A stretch of DNA of 32,830 nucleotides, taken from assembly GCA_018304145.1 (NCBI GenBank), contig JAGVWU010000012.1, positions 1 through 32,830 of the forward strand. Reading direction: 5' to 3'. The notes below the pieces were generated by a model. It saw nothing but the letters and a program-made list of their open reading frames with translations, made no database searches and was not told where the DNA came from. Both the position numbers and the translations under genes were made by a program. Source of the DNA: Candidatus Pacearchaeota archaeon (GTDB taxonomy: Archaea; Nanobdellota; Nanobdellia; Pacearchaeales; GW2011-AR1). Positions 3,107 to 26,318 of this stretch are shown here, piece after piece (positions within the stretch are counted from its first letter, which is position 1; the number at the start of each line of letters is the position of its first letter).

Positions 3107-4528
3107 CTACAATCCTAGACTTTCAATGAACTCCTGTTTATTGAATAATTTTAAATCCTTGTATTCCTGCCCTGTTCCAAGATAAAATATTGGCTTATGG
3201 GTTGTGTGAGAGACTGAAATGATTGTTCCGCCTTTTTCATCAACATCCGCTTTTGTCAATATTGAACCATCAATATCTATCATATCATGAAAAGCTTTTG
3301 CCTGTTCTGTTGCATCATTGCCTGCAATTGATTCTGCAACGAAAATCTTTAAATCTGGATTAGTAACTTTGCAGATTTTTTTCATTTCATCAAGAAGATT
3401 GGATTTTGTATGCATTCTTCCTGCAGTGTCAATCAAAACAACATTTATTTTATGAGCCTGTGCATATTTTATTGCATCAAAACCAACTGCAGATGGGTCT
3501 GCTCCATAATCATGCTTGATTAAAGGTATGCCCAATCTTTTAGCGTGTTCTGAAATCTGTTCTATGGAAGCTGCACGAAAAGTGTCTGCTGCTGCAAGCA
3601 CAACTGAATAATTTTTAGATTTTAAAAGATGAGCGAACTTGGCTATGCTTGTTGTTTTTCCTGTTCCGTTAATTCCAAAAAACAAGATAACAAAAGGCTC
3701 TTTTTCTTTTTTCTTGAATTCAATCGCTTCAACAGGGTCGTCAGGATCTATTAATATTTCATTTAGAGAAGATTTAAGCTCTTTTTTTATTTCATATTCC
3801 AAATCCTTTTTTGGAATTTCTTGATTTATTAATTTTTTGGAAAGCTTATCTTTTATATCTTCTACAACTTCAAGAGCAACATTGTTTTCTAAAAGAAGCA
3901 TTTCTAAGTCATTGAACAATTCATTAAAATCATCTTCTGTAATTTTATAGATAAAATTGGATTTGATTTTTGTTAGGATTGATGACTTTTCAGGAGCTGG
4001 GGTAACAAATTCATGGATAGCAAGTTCTGATTCTCCTGAATCAGAAGATTCAATCTTTCTCTTTTTTCCAAAAAATTTGCCCACTCTTTTTAAGAATCCT
4101 TTTTCAGTTTTTTCATGCCCTTTTTCCAGTTCTTCAACTGCCTGTTCAGGAGTTTCTTCTCCTTTTTCAACTTTTGATGCTATTTCCTGGGCTTTTTCAT
4201 TTTCTTCTTGAACTCTTTTGACATCCTCCTTTGTTGCTAAGGTTTTTTCTTCTATTTCCTCTTTTATTTTTTCTACATCTGGTTCATATTTTTGAAGTCC
4301 TGGCTTGAATTCCAATGGAGCTTCTTTGATTTTCTGTTTTTTTGCCTTTTCTATTAGTTTATCTGCTTTTTCTCCTGTTTTTTTGCCTTTCTTTTTTGCT
4401 GATTTTTTAGGAGCAGCAAGTTCTGATTTTTCTAAATCAGAAGATTCAATATTTACTTTTTCAGTTTTCAGTTTATCTTTAGCAGAAGATACCCATTCTT
4501 TTAACTTGTCTTTAAGGAATCCGAACAT
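3107..4528 (-). CDS. ftsY: SRP receptor FtsY with long charged N-terminal region
   Basis: 473 aa; 'FFGINGTGKTTSIAKFA', 'AADTFRAASIEQ', 'DTAGRMHTKSNLLDEM'. Confidence 0.95.
   Translation of the reverse strand: MFGFLKDKLKEWVSSAKDKLKTEKVNIESSDLEKSELAAPKKSAKKKGKKTGEKADKLIEKAKKQKIKEAPLEFKPGLQKYEPDVEKIKEEIEEKTLATKEDVKRVQEENEKAQEIASKVEKGEETPEQAVEELEKGHEKTEKGFLKRVGKFFGKKRKIESSDSGESELAIHEFVTPAPEKSSILTKIKSNFIYKITEDDFNELFNDLEMLLLENNVALEVVEDIKDKLSKKLINQEIPKKDLEYEIKKELKSSLNEILIDPDDPVEAIEFKKKEKEPFVILFFGINGTGKTTSIAKFAHLLKSKNYSVVLAAADTFRAASIEQISEHAKRLGIPLIKHDYGADPSAVGFDAIKYAQAHKINVVLIDTAGRMHTKSNLLDEMKKICKVTNPDLKIFVAESIAGNDATEQAKAFHDMIDIDGSILTKADVDEKGGTIISVSHTTHKPIFYLGTGQEYKDLKLFNKQEFIESLGL
4017..4055 (-). 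repeat. Coding palindromic element B (in FtsY)
   Basis: + strand ATAGCAAG TTCTGATTC TCCT GAATCAGAA GATTCAATC. Confidence 0.85.
4413..4452 (-). repeat. Coding palindromic element A (in FtsY)
   Basis: + strand GCAGCAAG TTCTGATTT TTCT AAATCAGAA GATTCAATAT. Confidence 0.85.
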
Positions 4529-5724: not shown

Positions 5725-5783
5725 AAAAAATGCTCTTTGCGTACGCTATGGGCTTTAGCCCATAAAAAGCAAAGGCATTTTTT
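5725..5783. other. Long intergenic hairpin
   Basis: AAAAAATGC(5725-5733)/GCATTTTTT(5775-5783), CTTTGC(5735-5740)/GCAAAG(5769-5774), TATGGGC(5747-5753)/GCCCATA(5758-5764). Confidence 0.75.
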
Positions 5784-5907
5784 GGGTGATCAAGAACCAG
5801 ACACGCCATGTGGAGAGATATGATGAAAATTGAGGGCATAATATGATAATATTTAATACAAAAAATATTAAAATATTTTTAGTCTGTAAAGAATCAATGG
5901 AGGAAAA

Positions 5908-7902: not shown

Positions 7903-8886
7903 ATGAAAAGGAGAGTTTATTTTAAGTCAAGTAGAATTAGAAATTTATTCTTCGAAAAAGTTTTAAAAAGTCATAAATTTAATAAATGGAATCAAATTGT
8001 TTTAAATCTTAATATTCCTAGAATAGTATTAAGTAAGTATAGAAACGGAAAATTAACTATCCCTGAGCAGGTTTATAAAAATCTTATTAATAATTTTAAT
8101 GAGAAAGATAAATCTTATTTTCAAAACAATATTTCTTATTTAAATGAAAATTGGGGTATGGTTAATGGAGGCATGTCTACTTATTTTAAATATAAAAATA
8201 TATTTGATGAAGGAAGAAAAAAAGCAATTCAAAAAATAAAAGACTCTTCTATAAAATTTGATATAAATCTTTCTTTAACAAAAGATTTGGCTTATTTTAT
8301 TGGTTTATTTATTGGAGATGGATTTACAAACAAATATGGGTATCATTATATAGTGCAATTTACAGGAGATAGTAGAAAAGAAAAAAATTATTATTTAGAA
8401 ATTGTCTCCAATATTTCAAAAACACTTTTTAATTTAATTCCTAAAATAAAAGAAGAAAATAATTCAAATACTCTGAGAGTGAATTTTTATTCAAAAAATT
8501 TATTTTTATTAATAACTGAAAGGTTTAAAATTAAGGCTGGGAGAAAGAGTAGTATTGTTTTAATTTCTGAGGAAATTTTAAATTCAAATAAGGATATATT
8601 ATTATCATGTATTGCTGGTATTTATGATGCTGAAGGATGTTTTTATTTTGATAAAAGGAAACATTATAAAAATCCTTATCCAGTTATTGCTTTGCATATG
8701 AATAATCCTGTTTTGATAAAACAAATTTCCGATATTTTTATAAAAAATAATATAGAACATTCATTTACTTCTAATTATTCCACACTTTATATTTATGGAA
8801 AAAAGTTTGTGAATGATTTTTTATCTAAAATTAGTTTATTAAATCCAAAATATATGTCCAATATAGAGTTATTAAAAAACATTTAA
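7903..8886 (+). CDS. LAGLIDADG homing endonuclease, stand-alone, two motifs, with an N-terminal HTH-like region
   Basis: 'LAYFIGLFIGDGF' and 'LLSCIAGIYDAEGCF' are paired LAGLIDADG-type helices; N-terminal segment ends in 'NWGMVNGG'. Confidence 0.85.
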   Translation: MKRRVYFKSSRIRNLFFEKVLKSHKFNKWNQIVLNLNIPRIVLSKYRNGKLTIPEQVYKNLINNFNEKDKSYFQNNISYLNENWGMVNGGMSTYFKYKNIFDEGRKKAIQKIKDSSIKFDINLSLTKDLAYFIGLFIGDGFTNKYGYHYIVQFTGDSRKEKNYYLEIVSNISKTLFNLIPKIKEENNSNTLRVNFYSKNLFLLITERFKIKAGRKSSIVLISEEILNSNKDILLSCIAGIYDAEGCFYFDKRKHYKNPYPVIALHMNNPVLIKQISDIFIKNNIEHSFTSNYSTLYIYGKKFVNDFLSKISLLNPKYMSNIELLKNI

Positions 8887-9453: not shown

Positions 9454-10290
9454 TCAGTTTTCTTTTTTAGGTCTTCCTTTTTTTGGGATTGCAAGCTTGT
9501 TCGCTGACAAGGATTGAATATTTGATGCCTTTTCAGGCATTTTTTCTTGGATAGCAGGTTCATCTTCTGATGAAGATTGCCTTTTTGCAGCTTTTTCCTG
9601 TACTTCTTTTATTTCTTTTTCTGCTTTTTTTATTTTTTCATCCTCAATTTCTTTTAATTGGTCAATAACATCTTCTTCAATAATCTCTTTTTTAATTTCT
9701 TTTGGCTTTTCCTTTATTTTTGGTATTTCTTCTGAAGCTAATTTTCTTTTAATTTCAATAGTTCTTATTTCACATAAAGATAATGGATAGGTTTTTTTAA
9801 GCATCATAGATAAAGATTTTTGAAGCCTATTTGTCAGGATATCTTCAAAAATTTCCTTATTTTTTCTTTCAGAGATATAATCTTCAAGCCAATTTTTAGT
9901 TTTGTTTCTTAAAGTTTTTCTTACTGCCCTTGAAACTTTTTTTCTTGTTATTAAAAAAGGCTTTACAAGAATCATGTTTTCCTGACTTGGAGTTTCAAAG
10001 GAGTCTTCCACATAACTTATTCTTTTTCTTATCATTCTCCTTATAAAATAAGACATTAGTTTTATTTTTTCAGGATAAGCAGATGCCTTGTTATTTTCTA
10101 CATGAATTATAAAAGTTCCTTCAACACTTTTTCCTTTTAACTGCCTTGTTAAATCTAATTTGATTGTCCGGTTATTCAATTGTTCAGCAGAATCTGCAAT
10201 AAGCTCGATTTTTGCTTTAACAAAAAGCAATTCAACTGGAATGAATTTTCTTCTTTTTGTTACAAGTTTTGTTGTTTTTTCAGGCGGCAT
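9454..10290 (-). CDS. Ribosomal protein eS1 (S3Ae) with extended charged C-terminus
   Basis: 'GKSVEGTFIIHVENNKASAYPEKIKLMSYFIRRMIRKRISYVEDSFE' core, then a lysine/glutamate-rich tail. Confidence 0.9.
   Translation of the reverse strand: MPPEKTTKLVTKRRKFIPVELLFVKAKIELIADSAEQLNNRTIKLDLTRQLKGKSVEGTFIIHVENNKASAYPEKIKLMSYFIRRMIRKRISYVEDSFETPSQENMILVKPFLITRKKVSRAVRKTLRNKTKNWLEDYISERKNKEIFEDILTNRLQKSLSMMLKKTYPLSLCEIRTIEIKRKLASEEIPKIKEKPKEIKKEIIEEDVIDQLKEIEDEKIKKAEKEIKEVQEKAAKRQSSSEDEPAIQEKMPEKASNIQSLSANKLAIPKKGRPKKEN
9488..9522 (-). repeat. Coding palindromic element C (in eS1)
   Basis: + strand ATTGCAAG CTTGTT CGCT GACAAG GATTGAATATT. Confidence 0.75.
9551..9581 (-). repeat. Coding palindromic element D (in eS1)
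   Basis: + strand ATAGCAGG TTCATC TTCT GATGAA GATTGCC. Confidence 0.75.
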
Positions 10291-14344: not shown

Positions 14345-14689
14345 ATGGAACTAGATAAATATCAAGAAGAATGTAAAAGAACTGTTAAAGAATTTGAAAG
14401 TGATAAGATAAAGATAATGACTTGGGGTTTGGGAATTTCAGGCGAGGCAGGGGATGTAGCAGGATGCATAAAGAAAACATTTGCGCATGACAATGATCAA
14501 AAAAATGGGATTAGAGAAAATCTTGGAGATACTATGTGGTATATTGCAAATATATGCAATTTTTTTAATTGGGATTTAAACGAAATTTTAGAAGAAAATA
14601 TGATTAAATTAAGGAAAAGATATCCAAATGGATTTACATCTAAAGATGCTAAAAGAGAAAGAGTTGACTGGAATGAACATTATAAATAA
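14345..14689 (+). CDS. MazG-like nucleotide pyrophosphohydrolase
   Basis: 'GISGEAGDVAGCIKKTFAHD' and 'ENLGDTMWYIANICNFFNWDL'. Confidence 0.85.
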   Translation: MELDKYQEECKRTVKEFESDKIKIMTWGLGISGEAGDVAGCIKKTFAHDNDQKNGIRENLGDTMWYIANICNFFNWDLNEILEENMIKLRKRYPNGFTSKDAKRERVDWNEHYK

Positions 14690-17600
14690 AATAATAAAAA
14701 ACAGGAAAACAAAAATATTTTTTATATTAATTATATTTTTAATTTTAGTCAATATTCATTTTATTTTTGCAGCAGGGTCTTTTACTGGAGGATATAATCC
14801 AAGTTTTGCAGGAGCAACTTATGCTGTTTATGGTTCATCTACAAATCCACAATTTAATAATCCAAGTTTTTTCAGTGTTTCCGGGTTTACATCCCCTGAA
14901 GTTTATTGGCCTAAGTTCAATAAAGAGGATTGTTTTGCAAGGCAAGACATGATTCTTCAAATTGCACCTGGAGGATGCTCGCCAAGTGTTGTGACAAGCG
15001 ATTTACTGGAAGAACAGAATGTTACTGTATTTTGCAAGATAATGGCTATTCAGGTCAATCCTCTTATTGATGTTTCAAAAATAAGGAGCATACGTTTTGC
15101 AGGAACCAACCTGCCAAAAGGAGTTTCAAGCATTTCTTATTACCCAGCAAGAGCTGCGGTAAGAAGTGAAATAAGCCTGACAAGCTCTCCTGTCAAAGAC
15201 AATTTAGGATATTTGGTTATTGTTTTATCAAGGATTCAGGCTGAAAAAGATATGCCTGAATTTGTTCAGGGGAATGTAACTGCAACAATTGACTACGATG
15301 TTCAGGGGGCTTTTGGAATTGGAAAAACTAATTTTTATGTTTCTGAATTAACAGATGATGAATGGAACCAAAATTATGAAAGATATGGCTTTTGGAATGG
15401 AAAGGGTTATGTGAGAGCAGAACTTATAGAGCCTGACAGAGCAACGATTGCAGTATATAAAGATATTAATTCAAAACAAGCTGGAGTGAGTTTGAAAAAA
15501 GGAGAAATCTCAAAAGACATTTACCTAAGCGGGTTTTATTGCGCTGCAGGGATGAATATCAAATTAGAAAGCATAGATGCCCCTGTAGATGCTGCATTGA
15601 TACAGATTGATAATCAGATGGTTTGGGTTTCAAAAGGAGATACAATATTAGACGGCAAGTGCAGAGTTTTGGATTTGCAGACTTATTCAGGAGGAGGCAA
15701 AGCTAGTATAAGCTGCAATGTTCGTAATGGAAAATTTGATTTAATAATAACTCCTGGAAAAGCCAGTTTTAATGTTGATGGAGCTGAAAAACAATATTAC
15801 ATCGGGCAGAAAGTAAGAGCAAAAGATAATTTATTTTTGGGTTATGTTGGAAAAGATTTTAATGGACTTGATTTTGCTGTTTTAATAAAAGATAATTCCT
15901 CTTCAGCTGAAAGCGAATTTGCAGACAAAGGAGTTTATGGGGCTGTTGATAAAATTGTCAAAGGAACCAACAAAGCTATAACTGAAAAAAGCTTTCAGGA
16001 ATCCATCAATAAATCAATCATAGAGAATTATAAAATAAAATTAAGAACAAGCGATGTACACAAAATCTTGGACAAGGATTTTATAAAAATAGTTTTAATA
16101 GGGGAAAATTCAAATGGAGTTATGTTAAAAGAAAGTTTTATTGCAAAGGATAAGGAATGGGACAATGAAAAAGATAATGCAAAATTATTATCAAAGCAAT
16201 ATTATGATGAGGCAATAAAAAATTATGAGGATTTGGCTGATTTGTATGCAAATGAGAAAGATGAAAAAGGAGAAGTTTATGCAAGCAATGGGCTTTTGGA
16301 ATTAGCAAGGTTATCAAAAAAATTTGGAATGAATAAAAAATCAGAGGAAACTTATGACAGACTGATAAATGATTATCCAGATTCAAGCAATGCCAAACAA
16401 GCTAAAATAGAAAGAGATTTACTGACAAGATTTGATTCTTATAATGCAAGGGCATTGATTAATATTAATGGGGAAAGATATTTTTTTAATCTAATAAATT
16501 TTAAAAAACCAGAAGTACAGGATTTGAATGCAATTTTATTGATTAATGGAAAAGAGGTTCTTTTGGGCATTGATGAATTTTATGATGTTAAAAAAGACAA
16601 TAAGAATGGAACTATACAACTTAAAGAAATAAAAGATGATTATGTTAGTGTAAGATATTTTAAAGAAAGAACGGATTTATTGGGGACTGGTTCAGAGGAT
16701 GCAAGATTGACTTTATACACTCAGACAAGCCAGCAAACTTTTTTTGATAACTTCATAAATGTAAAACTTATAAACATAACTTTTAAGAAAGAAGCTAAAT
16801 TAACTCTTGATTCAAAAACTTTCGGGCCTAGAACTTCTGCTAATTTCAGTTTTAAAATTGGAATAGAAAAGAGAGCAATTAAACTTAGCCCTGATAAAAC
16901 AAAAGAACTTATTAATAGCCTGGATGAAACAATGAAAAAATGGGGAGATGCAAACAATAAACTAGGGCAGGTAGTAAAAGTATTGAAAGGAGTTTGTTTG
17001 GCAACAGCTGCAACTTTGACTGTAAAAAATTTAGTTTCAGGTTTCAACGGTGCATCAATGGCTAGAAATGCATTAATGACTAAACAAGGAGGATGGAATG
17101 ATTTTTGCAGGAAGAAAGTTGAAGATAAGGCAGCAGGAAAGAGCGGGCAGACTTATTCAAGTGTTCAGAGCTGTTTATTGGATTATAACCCTGAAATAGA
17201 AAAAGATATTCAGTTATATACAAATGCTATTGACAAAACCAATAATGACCTGAAAAAAATTCAGGAAGGTTTGAAGCCAGTGGGCACAGATCCTTTGGAT
17301 ATGGAAAAACAAGTTGAAACTGAAAAAGTAAGACAGGCTTATTATGAGCAGCATTTTAAAAGTTTTTATGAGCAGAATCAAAATATGGAAATAGCTCTTT
17401 CTAATGGGCAGAAAGCTAAACTTAGTGATGTTGCAGGAGGACATCCTGAAAAAATGACTTTGGAAGACATGAGAAATTTAGTGACATTTAACCAGGTTAA
17501 AAGTTCAGGAGAATCTATGCTTAATCCTGTATTTAATAATCAGCTTGGGAAAGATTTGCTTTATACTTATCAATTAAACGAACAGACAAGACAGAATGAT

Positions 17601-20600
17601 GCTTTAGTCAATCAGTTTAAAAATAAATACGGAGGGGAATATCCTGTTTTTTCAGCTGAAAAAGGAGCCAGACTTCAAACCATGTATGCAATTCAAGATT
17701 CTGATTCTAAATTAAAAAATGATTTAGGTTTTTCAGAAAGAATGTTTATTCATTCTGTTCCTCTTGGTTATAATGATTCTGCAATAAGAGGACAGCAAGT
17801 AAGTGTTGGACTCACTAATGAAGGAGGAATTTATAAAATAAAAAAAGTTATTAATTCAAGCGGTGACGATGTTACGCAGCCTGTTTCAAGTTATTTTGCA
17901 AACTATTATAATCTCGATTCTTTCAAATTAGCAAATATAAAAGCATATCAAAATAAAATGGCTAATGTTGAAAATTTAAGAGTTAAATTCTTTGAGCAAT
18001 CTCCTTACAAGGGCATGCCTGCTGAAATCCCTTTTGATGTTGAGAATGGCTGGTATGTTGAAATGAGTTATGTTCTAACAGGGTTTGGAAAGCCTTATGA
18101 TGAATCTGGAAGAGTCATGAATTTTTATATTTGCAATGTTGGACAAAATGGAAGAATTGAGTTCAAGCAGAGTGCTGATGATATTTGCAGATATTATAAT
18201 GGAGATATTAATAGCATTGAATTTCCTGGAATGGGTGCAGGCGAGTCAAAATCATTAATTTCAAGGGCTCAGCAGGCAATTGCAGAAGCTTCAAGACAAT
18301 ATTCTAGCGCAAATAAAGGAGTGCAGATTGGAAACAGAGTTTTCAAGACAGCAGCTTCACTTTCTGGAAACGAAGGGAGATGCTCGGATTTTATGAGTCC
18401 GCAAGATTGCAATATAATGTTTAATGTTTGTGATCCTGTTATTTGCCCTTCATCAAGATGCAATTTAGGAGGAGCTTTTCAAGTTGATAATGTCATACAA
18501 ACAGGAATTTTAGGGAGCTTGGTTTTATGCGCTCCTAATGCAAGGGAAGGAATTTTGGCTCCTGTTTGTTTGTCAGGAGTTCATGCAGGAGTTGAGGGAC
18601 TTTTGAATGTTTTTAATGAAACCAAAAAATGCTTGAATGAAAGTTTGGCAACTGGAAAAAATGTTGGAATTTGCGATGCTATTAAAAGCGTTTACTTATG
18701 CAAATTATTTTGGGAAGAAGCAACTCCTTTTATGAAGGTTTTAATTCCAAGATTGATTCAGAGTTTTTACAGCCAGGGTGTTAGAGGTGGAGGAGAATAT
18801 TTAACAGTGCAATCTGCATGGGATAATACTCAAAGCGCAATAGAATATTTCAAAAATGATTATGCTGTAAATTCAATGCAGGCATTTACATCCCGTTCAA
18901 CAGCAGAAACAGGCAGTGAGGTTTGCAAGTCATTTACTTCTGTTGCTTATCCCAATTCCAAAGATTTTTTTGACAAATTATTAGAGCCTGACAGCCCTGT
19001 TCAATTCACAGGGTGGTTTAGCGAGGATATTTTAACAACAGCCACTGTTCCTTCAACTTCTCATTATAAAGTTTATTATCATATTTACAGCGGTAAAGAT
19101 CAGCCTGCTTATTATGTTATTTATTTGAAAGATTTACCACAAACCAGCTTAGGCACAGTCCCATTATCACAGCAATATATGGTTGATAGCGGTTATATTC
19201 AAAAAGGAAATTCAGTAGATAATTCAAGAGATTTCACAGCTGTTTCTGGTTACAGGCAATTATGCATAAATGTTAATGGGCAGGATAAATGTGGCTTCAA
19301 GAGCATTTCAAGCTCATATTCCTTAACAGAAGCATCAAGCCAGTATGCTGCTGAGCAGATTAAAACAGATATTAAAACTGAAAAAGAATGTGTTGCAGGA
19401 ACTCCTTCTGCTTTAAGTTTAATCGGACTTAGTTTACAACAAGGAGCTGAAGAAATAATTAATCCTGAATTGTATAAAAGAGGAATAATAAGAGTTTGTG
19501 CAACTGAAAATCCTGGGAAAAGGGTGGATAGTTTTGGGCAATATGATAATACTAATTCAATTTTAGACAGGTGGAAACAAGTTGGTTATTGCGATGATCC
19601 TACTATAAGGTGCTGGTTAGATACAGTTAGTGTTAAAAACGTAATAAAAGACCTTGGGCTTTTGAATGAAACTCTTGGAAAAGTTGATATGAGTATTTTT
19701 AGCCAAGGATTATTGACAAATGAACAGGGAAAAACAATTGCAAGCGAAGCAAAAAGCCAAATTGATAAATTGAAAATTGAGAGAAGTGATAATAATGTTA
19801 TTGTGCAGAATAAAATTTCCGATATAGTCAAAAAACTGCAGAATTTAACCAGCATTGGGCTAAACAATGGACATAGGGCGAGAGGATTCTTTTTATTATC
19901 AGGCCTTTATAAAAAAGTTAGTGAAAGCTTGTATGGAGATAATCAAATTACAACTACCAGTTCAGCTATTTTACCGCCTGATGATAGTTTAAGAGATAAT
20001 GTTATTATCAATGTTAATTATATTGGAGGCAGGCAGATAAATTTTAGATATATTTCAGGAATTGGCTGGACATCAAAAAATAATTTTGGACAATCAATGC
20101 CAATAGAGTCTCAAGTTTCTGGAATGAAGTATGCGGATGGAATTAATTCAATTGTTAAAAGCACTATAAAAGATGAAAGCGGAAATGATGCAAAAGTTTA
20201 TACAATTGAATTAGAAAGACAAACTTTAAGCTCGGATTTTCCCGAGGAATTATCACAGCAGACTTTTAATATTTTAAAAAAATCCGGAGTTGTTGCTTCC
20301 AGCTCAACTCCTTCAGAAACTTTTAAAGGCAAGGCTTTAAAAAATCCTGAAAATTTTATTTATAAGATTTATGATAAAAAAAATAATTATTATATATTTT
20401 ATATTTATGATTTGAGCGATAAAAAATGGAAAAGAGCCCTTTCTTCAGAAGGCAATTATGACTGGAAAACTAATTTAGTGAATTTTAGAGAAACAACTAT
20501 TCTGGGACTGGCTGGAGCCAGAGGTTTTGAAACTTTATTAAAAATATACTCAAACAAAGCTAATTATGATTTTTATTATATAGATAAATCTACTGGAATT

Positions 20601-20618
20601 GCAACAATTGATATGTGA
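14673..20618 (+). CDS. Giant secreted cell-surface protein (about 1981 aa) with signal peptide and a TPR-like segment
   Basis: Internal in-frame ATG at 14673 gives MNIINKIIKNRKTKIFFILIIFLILVNIHFIFAAGS, a signal peptide; TPR-like 'YDEAIKNYEDLADLYANEKDEKGEVYASNGLLELARLSKKFGMNKKSEETYDRLINDYPDS'; Cys-rich block 'CSDFMSPQDCNIMFNVCDPVICPSSRC'. Confidence 0.8.
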   Translation: MNIINKIIKNRKTKIFFILIIFLILVNIHFIFAAGSFTGGYNPSFAGATYAVYGSSTNPQFNNPSFFSVSGFTSPEVYWPKFNKEDCFARQDMILQIAPGGCSPSVVTSDLLEEQNVTVFCKIMAIQVNPLIDVSKIRSIRFAGTNLPKGVSSISYYPARAAVRSEISLTSSPVKDNLGYLVIVLSRIQAEKDMPEFVQGNVTATIDYDVQGAFGIGKTNFYVSELTDDEWNQNYERYGFWNGKGYVRAELIEPDRATIAVYKDINSKQAGVSLKKGEISKDIYLSGFYCAAGMNIKLESIDAPVDAALIQIDNQMVWVSKGDTILDGKCRVLDLQTYSGGGKASISCNVRNGKFDLIITPGKASFNVDGAEKQYYIGQKVRAKDNLFLGYVGKDFNGLDFAVLIKDNSSSAESEFADKGVYGAVDKIVKGTNKAITEKSFQESINKSIIENYKIKLRTSDVHKILDKDFIKIVLIGENSNGVMLKESFIAKDKEWDNEKDNAKLLSKQYYDEAIKNYEDLADLYANEKDEKGEVYASNGLLELARLSKKFGMNKKSEETYDRLINDYPDSSNAKQAKIERDLLTRFDSYNARALININGERYFFNLINFKKPEVQDLNAILLINGKEVLLGIDEFYDVKKDNKNGTIQLKEIKDDYVSVRYFKERTDLLGTGSEDARLTLYTQTSQQTFFDNFINVKLINITFKKEAKLTLDSKTFGPRTSANFSFKIGIEKRAIKLSPDKTKELINSLDETMKKWGDANNKLGQVVKVLKGVCLATAATLTVKNLVSGFNGASMARNALMTKQGGWNDFCRKKVEDKAAGKSGQTYSSVQSCLLDYNPEIEKDIQLYTNAIDKTNNDLKKIQEGLKPVGTDPLDMEKQVETEKVRQAYYEQHFKSFYEQNQNMEIALSNGQKAKLSDVAGGHPEKMTLEDMRNLVTFNQVKSSGESMLNPVFNNQLGKDLLYTYQLNEQTRQNDALVNQFKNKYGGEYPVFSAEKGARLQTMYAIQDSDSKLKNDLGFSERMFIHSVPLGYNDSAIRGQQVSVGLTNEGGIYKIKKVINSSGDDVTQPVSSYFANYYNLDSFKLANIKAYQNKMANVENLRVKFFEQSPYKGMPAEIPFDVENGWYVEMSYVLTGFGKPYDESGRVMNFYICNVGQNGRIEFKQSADDICRYYNGDINSIEFPGMGAGESKSLISRAQQAIAEASRQYSSANKGVQIGNRVFKTAASLSGNEGRCSDFMSPQDCNIMFNVCDPVICPSSRCNLGGAFQVDNVIQTGILGSLVLCAPNAREGILAPVCLSGVHAGVEGLLNVFNETKKCLNESLATGKNVGICDAIKSVYLCKLFWEEATPFMKVLIPRLIQSFYSQGVRGGGEYLTVQSAWDNTQSAIEYFKNDYAVNSMQAFTSRSTAETGSEVCKSFTSVAYPNSKDFFDKLLEPDSPVQFTGWFSEDILTTATVPSTSHYKVYYHIYSGKDQPAYYVIYLKDLPQTSLGTVPLSQQYMVDSGYIQKGNSVDNSRDFTAVSGYRQLCINVNGQDKCGFKSISSSYSLTEASSQYAAEQIKTDIKTEKECVAGTPSALSLIGLSLQQGAEEIINPELYKRGIIRVCATENPGKRVDSFGQYDNTNSILDRWKQVGYCDDPTIRCWLDTVSVKNVIKDLGLLNETLGKVDMSIFSQGLLTNEQGKTIASEAKSQIDKLKIERSDNNVIVQNKISDIVKKLQNLTSIGLNNGHRARGFFLLSGLYKKVSESLYGDNQITTTSSAILPPDDSLRDNVIINVNYIGGRQINFRYISGIGWTSKNNFGQSMPIESQVSGMKYADGINSIVKSTIKDESGNDAKVYTIELERQTLSSDFPEELSQQTFNILKKSGVVASSSTPSETFKGKALKNPENFIYKIYDKKNNYYIFYIYDLSDKKWKRALSSEGNYDWKTNLVNFRETTILGLAGARGFETLLKIYSNKANYDFYYIDKSTGIATIDM

Positions 20619-25241: not shown

Positions 25242-26318
25242 ATGGTTGAAGTTCAAATTATAAAAAACAGAATAATAGAGGTGTTAAAAAGAAGAGGTCC
25301 GAGTCTGCCTATTCAAATAGCAGGTGAAATAAAACAGAACTCTATATTCACCTCCGCATTTTTATCAGAATTAGCTGATGAAAAAAAAATAAAAACAAGC
25401 GCTTTAATGGTCGGAGGCTCTCACTTATATCTTTTAGATGGGCAAGAAGACCAGCTGGAAAAATTCACTAAATATCTTCATCCAAAAGAAGCAGAAGCTT
25501 TTCTTTTGTTAAAAAATAACAAGATTTTGAAAGAATCTGAACAAGAGCCTGCAATAAGAGTTGCATTAAAGGAAATAAGAGATTTTGCAGAAAGCTTCAA
25601 AAATGACAATGATGTTTATTGGAAACTTATTCTCACATCAAATTCAGAAATAGAATCTCTTTTTCAGCAAAAATCAAGCAAACAGGAAATGGTTGAAGAG
25701 AAAGCAGAAAAAAAGGAGGAGAGAACAGAAATATCCAAACAAGAAAAAACAGCAAATGTCCAGCCTTTTAATTTACAAAAATCCGAATTTACTATTCAAG
25801 AGAAAATAACAGAGATACAAGAAAAAATAGAGCAAGAACTTACTGTCAAAGAAGAGCAAAACCCAGAAAAAATAAAAAAAGGGCAATCTTCTTTTTTGCA
25901 AAAAAATGAATTTACTGTAAGAAAAATAAAAAGGCCGAAAGAAATTGAAATCATGTTTGATAATCCTCTTGTTCAAAAGATAGAAAAACCAAAAAAAGAC
26001 AAGCCAAAATCAGAATTTGTTCTAAATGTAATAAAGTCTTTAGAAAAAATAAGCTTTAAAATAATTGAAGAAAAAGAGCATAAACTCAAAGAATATCTTG
26101 CATTAGTAGAAGTAAATTCACCTTTAGGCCCTATAATTTTTTTAACCCAAGCAAAAGATAAACAAACCATCAATGACTTGGATCTTCAAAAACTTCTTTC
26201 TGATGCTCAATCAATACCTCTTCCTGCATTAATGCTTTATACAGGAAATCTGACAAAAAAATCCATAGAGTATGCTGAAAAATACTCTTCTATATTAAAA
26301 ATCAAGAAAATTGAATAA
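25242..26318 (+). CDS. Hypothetical protein with N-terminal winged-helix-like region, charged linker and C-terminal domain
   Basis: 358 aa; 'IIEVLKRRGPSLPIQIAGEIKQNSIFTSAFLSELADEKKIKTS' is wHTH-like. Confidence 0.65.
   Translation: MVEVQIIKNRIIEVLKRRGPSLPIQIAGEIKQNSIFTSAFLSELADEKKIKTSALMVGGSHLYLLDGQEDQLEKFTKYLHPKEAEAFLLLKNNKILKESEQEPAIRVALKEIRDFAESFKNDNDVYWKLILTSNSEIESLFQQKSSKQEMVEEKAEKKEERTEISKQEKTANVQPFNLQKSEFTIQEKITEIQEKIEQELTVKEEQNPEKIKKGQSSFLQKNEFTVRKIKRPKEIEIMFDNPLVQKIEKPKKDKPKSEFVLNVIKSLEKISFKIIEEKEHKLKEYLALVEVNSPLGPIIFLTQAKDKQTINDLDLQKLLSDAQSIPLPALMLYTGNLTKKSIEYAEKYSSILKIKKIE
25761..25800 (+). repeat. Coding palindromic element F (strongly diverged, in the 358-aa ORF)
   Basis: CAGCC TTTTAATTT ACAA AAATCCGAA TTTACTATTCAAG; same 9-4-9 spacing, imperfect stem. 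Confidence 0.4.
25884..25920 (+). repeat. Coding palindromic element E (diverged, in the 358-aa ORF)
   Basis: CAATC TTCTTTTTT GCAA AAAAATGAA TTTACTGTAA; 9-4-9 layout, one stem mismatch. Confidence 0.55.

Follow-up and report, generated by a model that had tools for sequence, protein, structure and literature searches.

Palindromic units at the eS1 locus

The window, meaning the whole 32,830-nucleotide stretch of DNA analysed, corresponds to contig C57 of an archaeal MAG (G000), which has 70 contigs and a size of 1.15 Mb. Note that all genomes compared are incomplete MAGs. The genes for FtsY and ribosomal protein eS1 (S3Ae) lie on the reverse strand, and each contains two palindromic units (Table 1). 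In the sense direction of the eS1 tail, copy eS1a is followed by a 21-nt spacer, GAAAAAATGCCTGAAAAGGCA, and then by copy eS1b. The eS1a sense strand reads GCAAAAAGGCAATC-TTCATC-AGAA-GATGAA-CCTGCTATCCAA, exactly as described in a sequence-only reading of this DNA. Its stem is perfect and the predicted peptide is A-K-R-Q-S-S-S-E-D-E-P-A-I-Q. The eS1b sense strand reads TCAAATATTCAATC-CTTGTC-AGCG-AACAAG-CTTGCAATCCCA, with predicted peptide S-N-I-Q-S-L-S-A-N-K-L-A-I-P. This unit had been described as a 6-4-6 palindrome. Its flanks do place it in the same family, but the innermost stem pair is a C/A mismatch, so the stem is not a perfect 6-4-6. As had been noted, the eS1 units are 6 nt shorter than those in FtsY (42 versus 48 nt) and the reading frame is kept.

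Table 1. Features of the window. E-values are from Pfam searches or covariance models R1 and R2; flank-only ranks are from the scan described in the text.
Feature	Position	Strand	Details
FtsY gene	3107..4528	-	473 aa; Pfam SRP54 E=3e-70; copies in N-terminal linker
FtsY copy 2, 48 nt	4013..4060	-	stem TTCTGATTC-AGGA-GAATCAGAA, 9-4-9; R2 E=7.7e-10 (in training set)
FtsY copy 1, 48 nt	4409..4456	-	stem TTCTGATTT-AGAA-AAATCAGAA, 9-4-9; R2 E=3e-10 (in training set)
Unrelated dispersed repeat	about 5739..5815	+	about 75 nt or more
LAGLIDADG-like free-standing ORF	7903..8886	+	PF14528 E=3e-6
eS1 (S3Ae) gene	9454..10290	-	278 aa; Pfam PF01015 E=4e-13; both copies in tail after about aa 180
eS1b, 42 nt	9484..9525	-	R2 E=0.022; flank-only rank 5
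eS1b parts	arms 9511-9506 and 9501-9496; loop 9505-9502	-	5/6 paired
Palindrome ATGCCT-TTTC-AGGCAT, 6-4-6	9525..9540		in 21-nt spacer between eS1a and eS1b; no family flanks
eS1a, 42 nt	9547..9588	-	R2 E=1.9e-5; flank-only rank 2
eS1a parts	flank 9588-9575; arms 9574-9569 and 9564-9559; loop 9568-9565; 3' flank 9558-9547	-
Predicted secreted or membrane protein	14628..20618	+	1996 aa
358-aa protein	25242..26318	+	no Pfam match
Probable decayed copy in 358-aa protein	25752..25799	+	frame 0; inferred by eye; below model threshold
Copy in 358-aa protein	25875..25922	+	frame 0; one stem mismatch; R1 E=3.7e-4, R2 E=0.0036; outside both training sets

A further palindrome, between eS1a and eS1b, had been listed alongside them. 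It is present, but is not a family member, and R2 failed to match it even when filters were disabled. The window contains 38 perfect palindromes in which a 4-nt loop separates arms of 6 bp or more, compared with 26 +/- 6 in Markov shuffles. Hence, perfect 6-bp palindromes are cheap and this example, which is near chance and outside the element family, needs no explanation. What sets units eS1a and eS1b apart from it is that they have the family flanks.

A dispersed element with paired cores

An initial pattern search, with a guessed consensus, matched only the two FtsY copies. Covariance models R1 and R2 were built from nine and 35 copies, respectively. Because MAFFT misaligned short copies, both models were limited to copies with a 22-nt core. 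The sequence-only reading had suggested an RNA covariance search; R2 recovered eS1a, which had been left out of its training set, at E=1.9e-5. At E<=1, R1 produced 28 matches in the genome containing the window and 17-33 in each of G015, G005 and G007. At E<=0.01, R2 detected 31 copies in G005, 19 in G000, 14 in G015, 12 in G012, nine in G007, three in G001 and one each in G014, G016 and G006, with zero in the 12 other congeners, G002, G003, G013 and G017 among them. At E<=1e-4, eight of the 211 genomes of the order had a match, all in the same genus; R2 matched none of the 190 genomes from 105 other genera of the order. Against Rfam 15, nothing corresponding to the element scored above the gathering threshold, and the window yielded only four tRNAs.

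The full element is 48 nt (16 codons) and has the form GCAAATTTGGAATY-YTC(N6)-N4-(N6)GAR-CYTRYTATCC, plus one or two more bases. When 57 copies were anchored at the stem base, column information fell to background beyond -14 and about +11. Hence, the ends are sharp. The core is 9-4-9 in 37 of the 57 copies and 8-6-8, which is equal in length, in eight; short 6-4-6 forms, such as eS1a, give the 42-nt element. At least two sequence subtypes occur, GCAAATTTGGAATC...CTTGCTATC and AAACCAAYGCAATC...CCTGCTACCAAA. The palindrome is internal and, except for a short GCAA/TTGC match, neither flank is an inverted copy of the other. Stem sequences are highly divergent among copies, and yet Watson-Crick pairs make up 437 of the 446 stem pairs, and G-U pairs only five. 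The covariation score is 0.73, compared with 0.23 in shuffles. Note that this score is supporting, rather than independent, evidence because most copies were selected by a model that rewards pairing.

The cleanest evidence for paired cores is a flank-only scan. Pairing played no part in the selection of its seven sites, and the circularity of pairing-based models is avoided. Weight matrices were trained on the copies of other genomes, ignoring the core, and applied to 395 kb (about one third) of the genome containing the window. The top seven sites, in order, were in Cbf5, eS1a, FtsY copy 1, a new site on contig C40, eS1b, a site on contig C32, and FtsY copy 2. Core pairs at these sites were 9/9, 6/6, 9/9, 7/9, 5/6, 9/10 and 9/9. 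Pooled, this is 54 of 58 pairs, against approximately 27% in shuffled DNA; lower-ranked cores were at background. Together with the covariance model and congeneric eS1 tails, the scan bears out the earlier proposal that the eS1 and FtsY units are one in-frame family of variable stem length.

The count of the 10-mer CTTGCTATCC (68, against 21 in a reversed control) was given no weight, since the rare CG dinucleotide occurs in the reversed control. Separately, the 395 kb contains 16 coding hairpins that combine a 4-nt loop with arms of 9 bp or more, compared with 5.4 in synonymous shuffles. The excess also appears with loops of 3-5 nt, beyond the element family, and perhaps reflects template-switch correction of quasi-palindromes. 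This genome-wide excess is real but general, and alone identifies no family.

Host genes, orientation and reading frame

Within the genus, in-frame copies are spread over dozens of essential genes. Host genes checked with Pfam encode FtsY, eS1, Cbf5, eL19, uL22, uL24, uL30, NAC, cyclophilin, CysRS, GatB and enolase. Another host is a class I synthetase with an Anticodon_1 domain according to Pfam, which we read as probably specific for isoleucine (IleRS below); a further host is a likely GatC. Of 51 stronger copies, 43 (about 84%) are in ORFs of 100 codons or more; the other eight are in spacers or short ORFs. This share is close to the 83% of the sample that is coding.

Copies occur in both orientations relative to the gene, with 24 sense and 19 antisense among those in coding DNA. 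Sense copies use frame 0 in 23 of 24 cases (peptides like NLESSESKDSELAIQ); the lone exception is a misassigned ORF, and its uL24 frame is also 0. Antisense copies use frame 1 in 18 of 19 cases (peptide IASSESxDSENSKFA). Other frames often contain stops and, once this is considered, the frame bias is about 10^-4.4, which is weaker than it appears. Some selection on frame remains, because frame 1 in the sense direction, although open in 29 of the 51 copies, is almost unused.

Elsewhere in the window, the 358-aa protein contains one copy and, upstream, what is probably a decayed copy, GCAAATGTCCAGCC-TTTTAATTT-ACAA-AAATCCGAA-TTTACTATTCAA, in which six of nine pairs remain. The orthologue in G005 has a unit at a different position. 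The FtsY protein of G005 (L124) has four units in its N-terminal linker, the most seen in any single protein.

Occupied and empty sites

Orthologous genes differ in the presence of the element. The IleRS gene of G012 is longer by 14 codons, located exactly where the element lies, and eight relatives have a short loop and no element; in G007, a related palindromic stretch occupies the same loop. The NAC protein of G005 has nine extra codons compared with that of G000. In the PUA domain of Cbf5, the element is present in G000 and G005 and absent from G015, G001 and G016. In G015, the nearest relative, neither of the eS1 copies is present, nor is FtsY copy 2. Note that, in Cbf5 and NAC, the copy substitutes some ancestral residues and is not a clean insertion. 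Target-site duplications were not readable at the nearest occupied and empty pairs, which are highly divergent.

At some shared sites the stems differ at several positions and are still largely paired. The sites are the uL24 tail (G000 and G015), GatC (G012 and G015) and Cbf5 (G000 and G005). These could be either two separate insertions or cases where one arm was copied onto the other.

Length of the eS1 tail

The sequence-only reading had proposed that the eS1 tail grew by element accretion, and suggested comparing tail length with element number. Among 18 congeners, tails range from 57 to 138 aa. The mean is 106 aa with a detectable element and 91 aa without (Mann-Whitney P=0.07; Spearman rho 0.36, P=0.14), and element-free tails reach 111 and 131 aa. 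Each element adds 14-16 aa, and Lys/Glu-rich tail sequence lengthens without elements too. The eS1 tails of most congeners have no such palindromic pattern; those of G001, G005, G010 and G012 do. The eS1 core tree was too poorly resolved to assign gains and losses of elements. We conclude that tail growth by accretion, as suggested by these sequences, is weakly supported, and that elements are not the main cause of the tails' existence.

Origin of the copies and maintenance of pairing

The element family is real and restricted to one genus; it is kept in translatable form and was apparently active recently. We consider it very likely that both eS1 units belong to a dispersed palindromic DNA element, 42-48 nt long and non-autonomous, which inserted many times in one DPANN genus. 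The copies probably arose by transposition. In such a scheme, the element would insert both in genes and in spacers of this nanoarchaeal genus, facing either way, and within genes would be retained only in a stop-free, polar frame. Insertion would add a Ser/Glu/Asp/Lys-rich peptide of 14-16 residues at a tolerated terminus, linker or surface loop, and this peptide is presumably translated. Comparison among genomes lends good support to both insertion and translation. Complementarity of the arms would be upheld at the DNA level, with fold-back template switching transferring a change from one arm to its partner.

Logically, the palindromes might instead be a by-product of acidic, serine-rich linkers, in which SSDSxESE peptides make hairpins and no DNA element exists. 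Glu-Ser (GAATC) and Asp-Ser (GATTC) codons are automatically reverse complements, and many coding copies encode ESS..DSE-type peptides. However, in the 18 congeneric eS1 tails pooled, there are six perfect stems of at least 8 bp, compared with 1.06 expected from synonymous shuffles, and none of 200 shuffles reached six. For the whole eS1 tail of G000, with its three palindromic registers, the equivalent comparison with its own synonymous shuffles gave P=0.042. Perfect stems also occur in intergenic copies, and in copies encoding FSLFKNKEL and SSFFDKKEN. Furthermore, antisense copies give a different peptide, and the conserved flanks extend beyond the stem to sharp ends. We regard a peptide by-product as highly improbable. 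Selection for RNA hairpins in many housekeeping mRNAs, acting through translation pausing, mRNA stability or protein binding, would account for predicted hairpins of -6 to -11 kcal/mol and for pairing maintained despite sequence change. However, RNA-level selection tolerates G-U pairs, and these are nearly absent here (5 of 446). The occurrence of both orientations, the lack of copies in most congeners and the lack of an Rfam match also count against selected hairpins, and we judge them very unlikely. The near absence of G-U pairs is why we favour a DNA-level process, namely fold-back copying, over selection on RNA folding as the means by which the arms stay complementary.

Two known types of element could in principle produce similar patterns. 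Hairpins of approximately 50 nt inside genes recall the byps of Magnusiomyces mitochondria, which the ribosome skips. For a skipped element, lengths of 42 or 48 nt and a nearly constant open frame would be needless, and we attach very little probability to bypassing. Short dispersed palindromes with conserved non-palindromic flanks could also be REP/BIME-type elements, or IS200/IS605-derived MITEs, moved by a Y1 transposase (TnpA or RAYT). REPs are tied to Y1 transposases, and such enzymes are present in the genus. However, PF01797 is absent from the element-rich genomes G001, G005, G007, G012 and G015, and is most frequent (11 matches) in element-free G002. Movement by Y1 is thus extremely improbable. 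Reverse transcriptases (PF00078) were rejected as the mobiliser, being found in copy-rich and copy-free genomes with no relation to copy number. Hence, profile searches of the congeners with PF01797 and PF00078 linked no mobiliser to the element.

The dispersed DNA element remains our preferred reading. A more specific version is tentative, and we hold it as a possibility that is rather doubtful. The element might represent a new archaeal class of mobile DNA, in which the flanks and YTC/GAR base are fixed and the inner stem is rewritten, with pairing preserved, by hairpin-dependent copying that also moves the element. The sequence might be tuned to be translatable in both orientations.

Comparison with known palindromic elements

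Rickettsia palindromic elements (RPEs; Ogata 2000, 2002) are in-frame insertions in unrelated genes (PMC10969869; PMC6649704). Judged by the accounts cited, the archaeal element resembles them in several ways. Both are short dispersed palindromes, in frame in unrelated housekeeping genes and also in spacers, that add a peptide and do not destroy the protein. Both vary in presence among orthologues and, as far as these accounts go, neither has been assigned a mobiliser. In contrast to RPEs, which are alphaproteobacterial and about 100-150 nt, the archaeal element is 42-48 nt, or about a third of that length. Its stems differ widely between copies but are fully paired, while in RPEs repeat identity is reported to decay with time; it is also translatable in both orientations, which sets it apart from RPEs as those accounts describe them. 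We would class the element as RPE-like rather than as an RPE; the likeness is one of behaviour, with R2 searches made within the archaeal order only.

Coding palindromes of Nematomorpha mitochondria are perfect inverted repeats of up to 284 bp, gained and lost between species, for which fold-back copying has been proposed (PMC6649704). There too, complementarity is apparently upheld by a conversion or template-switch process. Unlike these long palindromes, the archaeal element forms a single family, which is short and has a defined consensus. We know of no shared flanking consensus for the Nematomorpha palindromes. REP elements (GTAG/CGTC families) are small dispersed palindromes of high copy number (PMC3733652). 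The archaeal element is similarly small, dispersed and present in many copies but, unlike extragenic REPs, is mostly within genes, and Y1 does not track its copy number. Byps are mobile hairpin inserts within genes, as here, and are untranslated (PMC8211752, PMC6649704). In contrast, the archaeal units keep the frame and are without stops.

Coding palindromic elements were described earlier as a feature of Rickettsia that is unique but recurrent, and searches of the open-access literature gave us no account of such elements in archaea. A distinct and shorter family, present in reduced DPANN genomes, would show that selfish DNA can repeatedly seed new stretches of peptide in those archaeal proteins that are most conserved. 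Essential genes among the hosts include those for ribosomal proteins, FtsY and tRNA synthetases. One species has 31 copies and twelve congeners have none that we detected, which makes the genus a natural system for studying mobility and arm complementarity.

Other features of the window and genus

The reverse transcriptase genes (PF00078) occur in 14 of 21 congeners, with at most five matches per genome in these small MAGs. Between the tRNA-Thr and nucleoside diphosphate kinase genes of the window is the LAGLIDADG-like ORF, and the 1996-aa predicted secreted or membrane protein has no confident Pfam domain. The second dispersed repeat, GCGTACGCTATGGGCTTTAGCCCATAAAAAGCAAAGGCATTTTTTGGGTGATCAAGAACCAGACACGCCATGTGG, is unrelated to the element. 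It is nearly identical in at least five contigs (the window, C35, C12, C40 and C4; L003, L019, L063 and L076), contains nested inverted repeats and is apparently intergenic.
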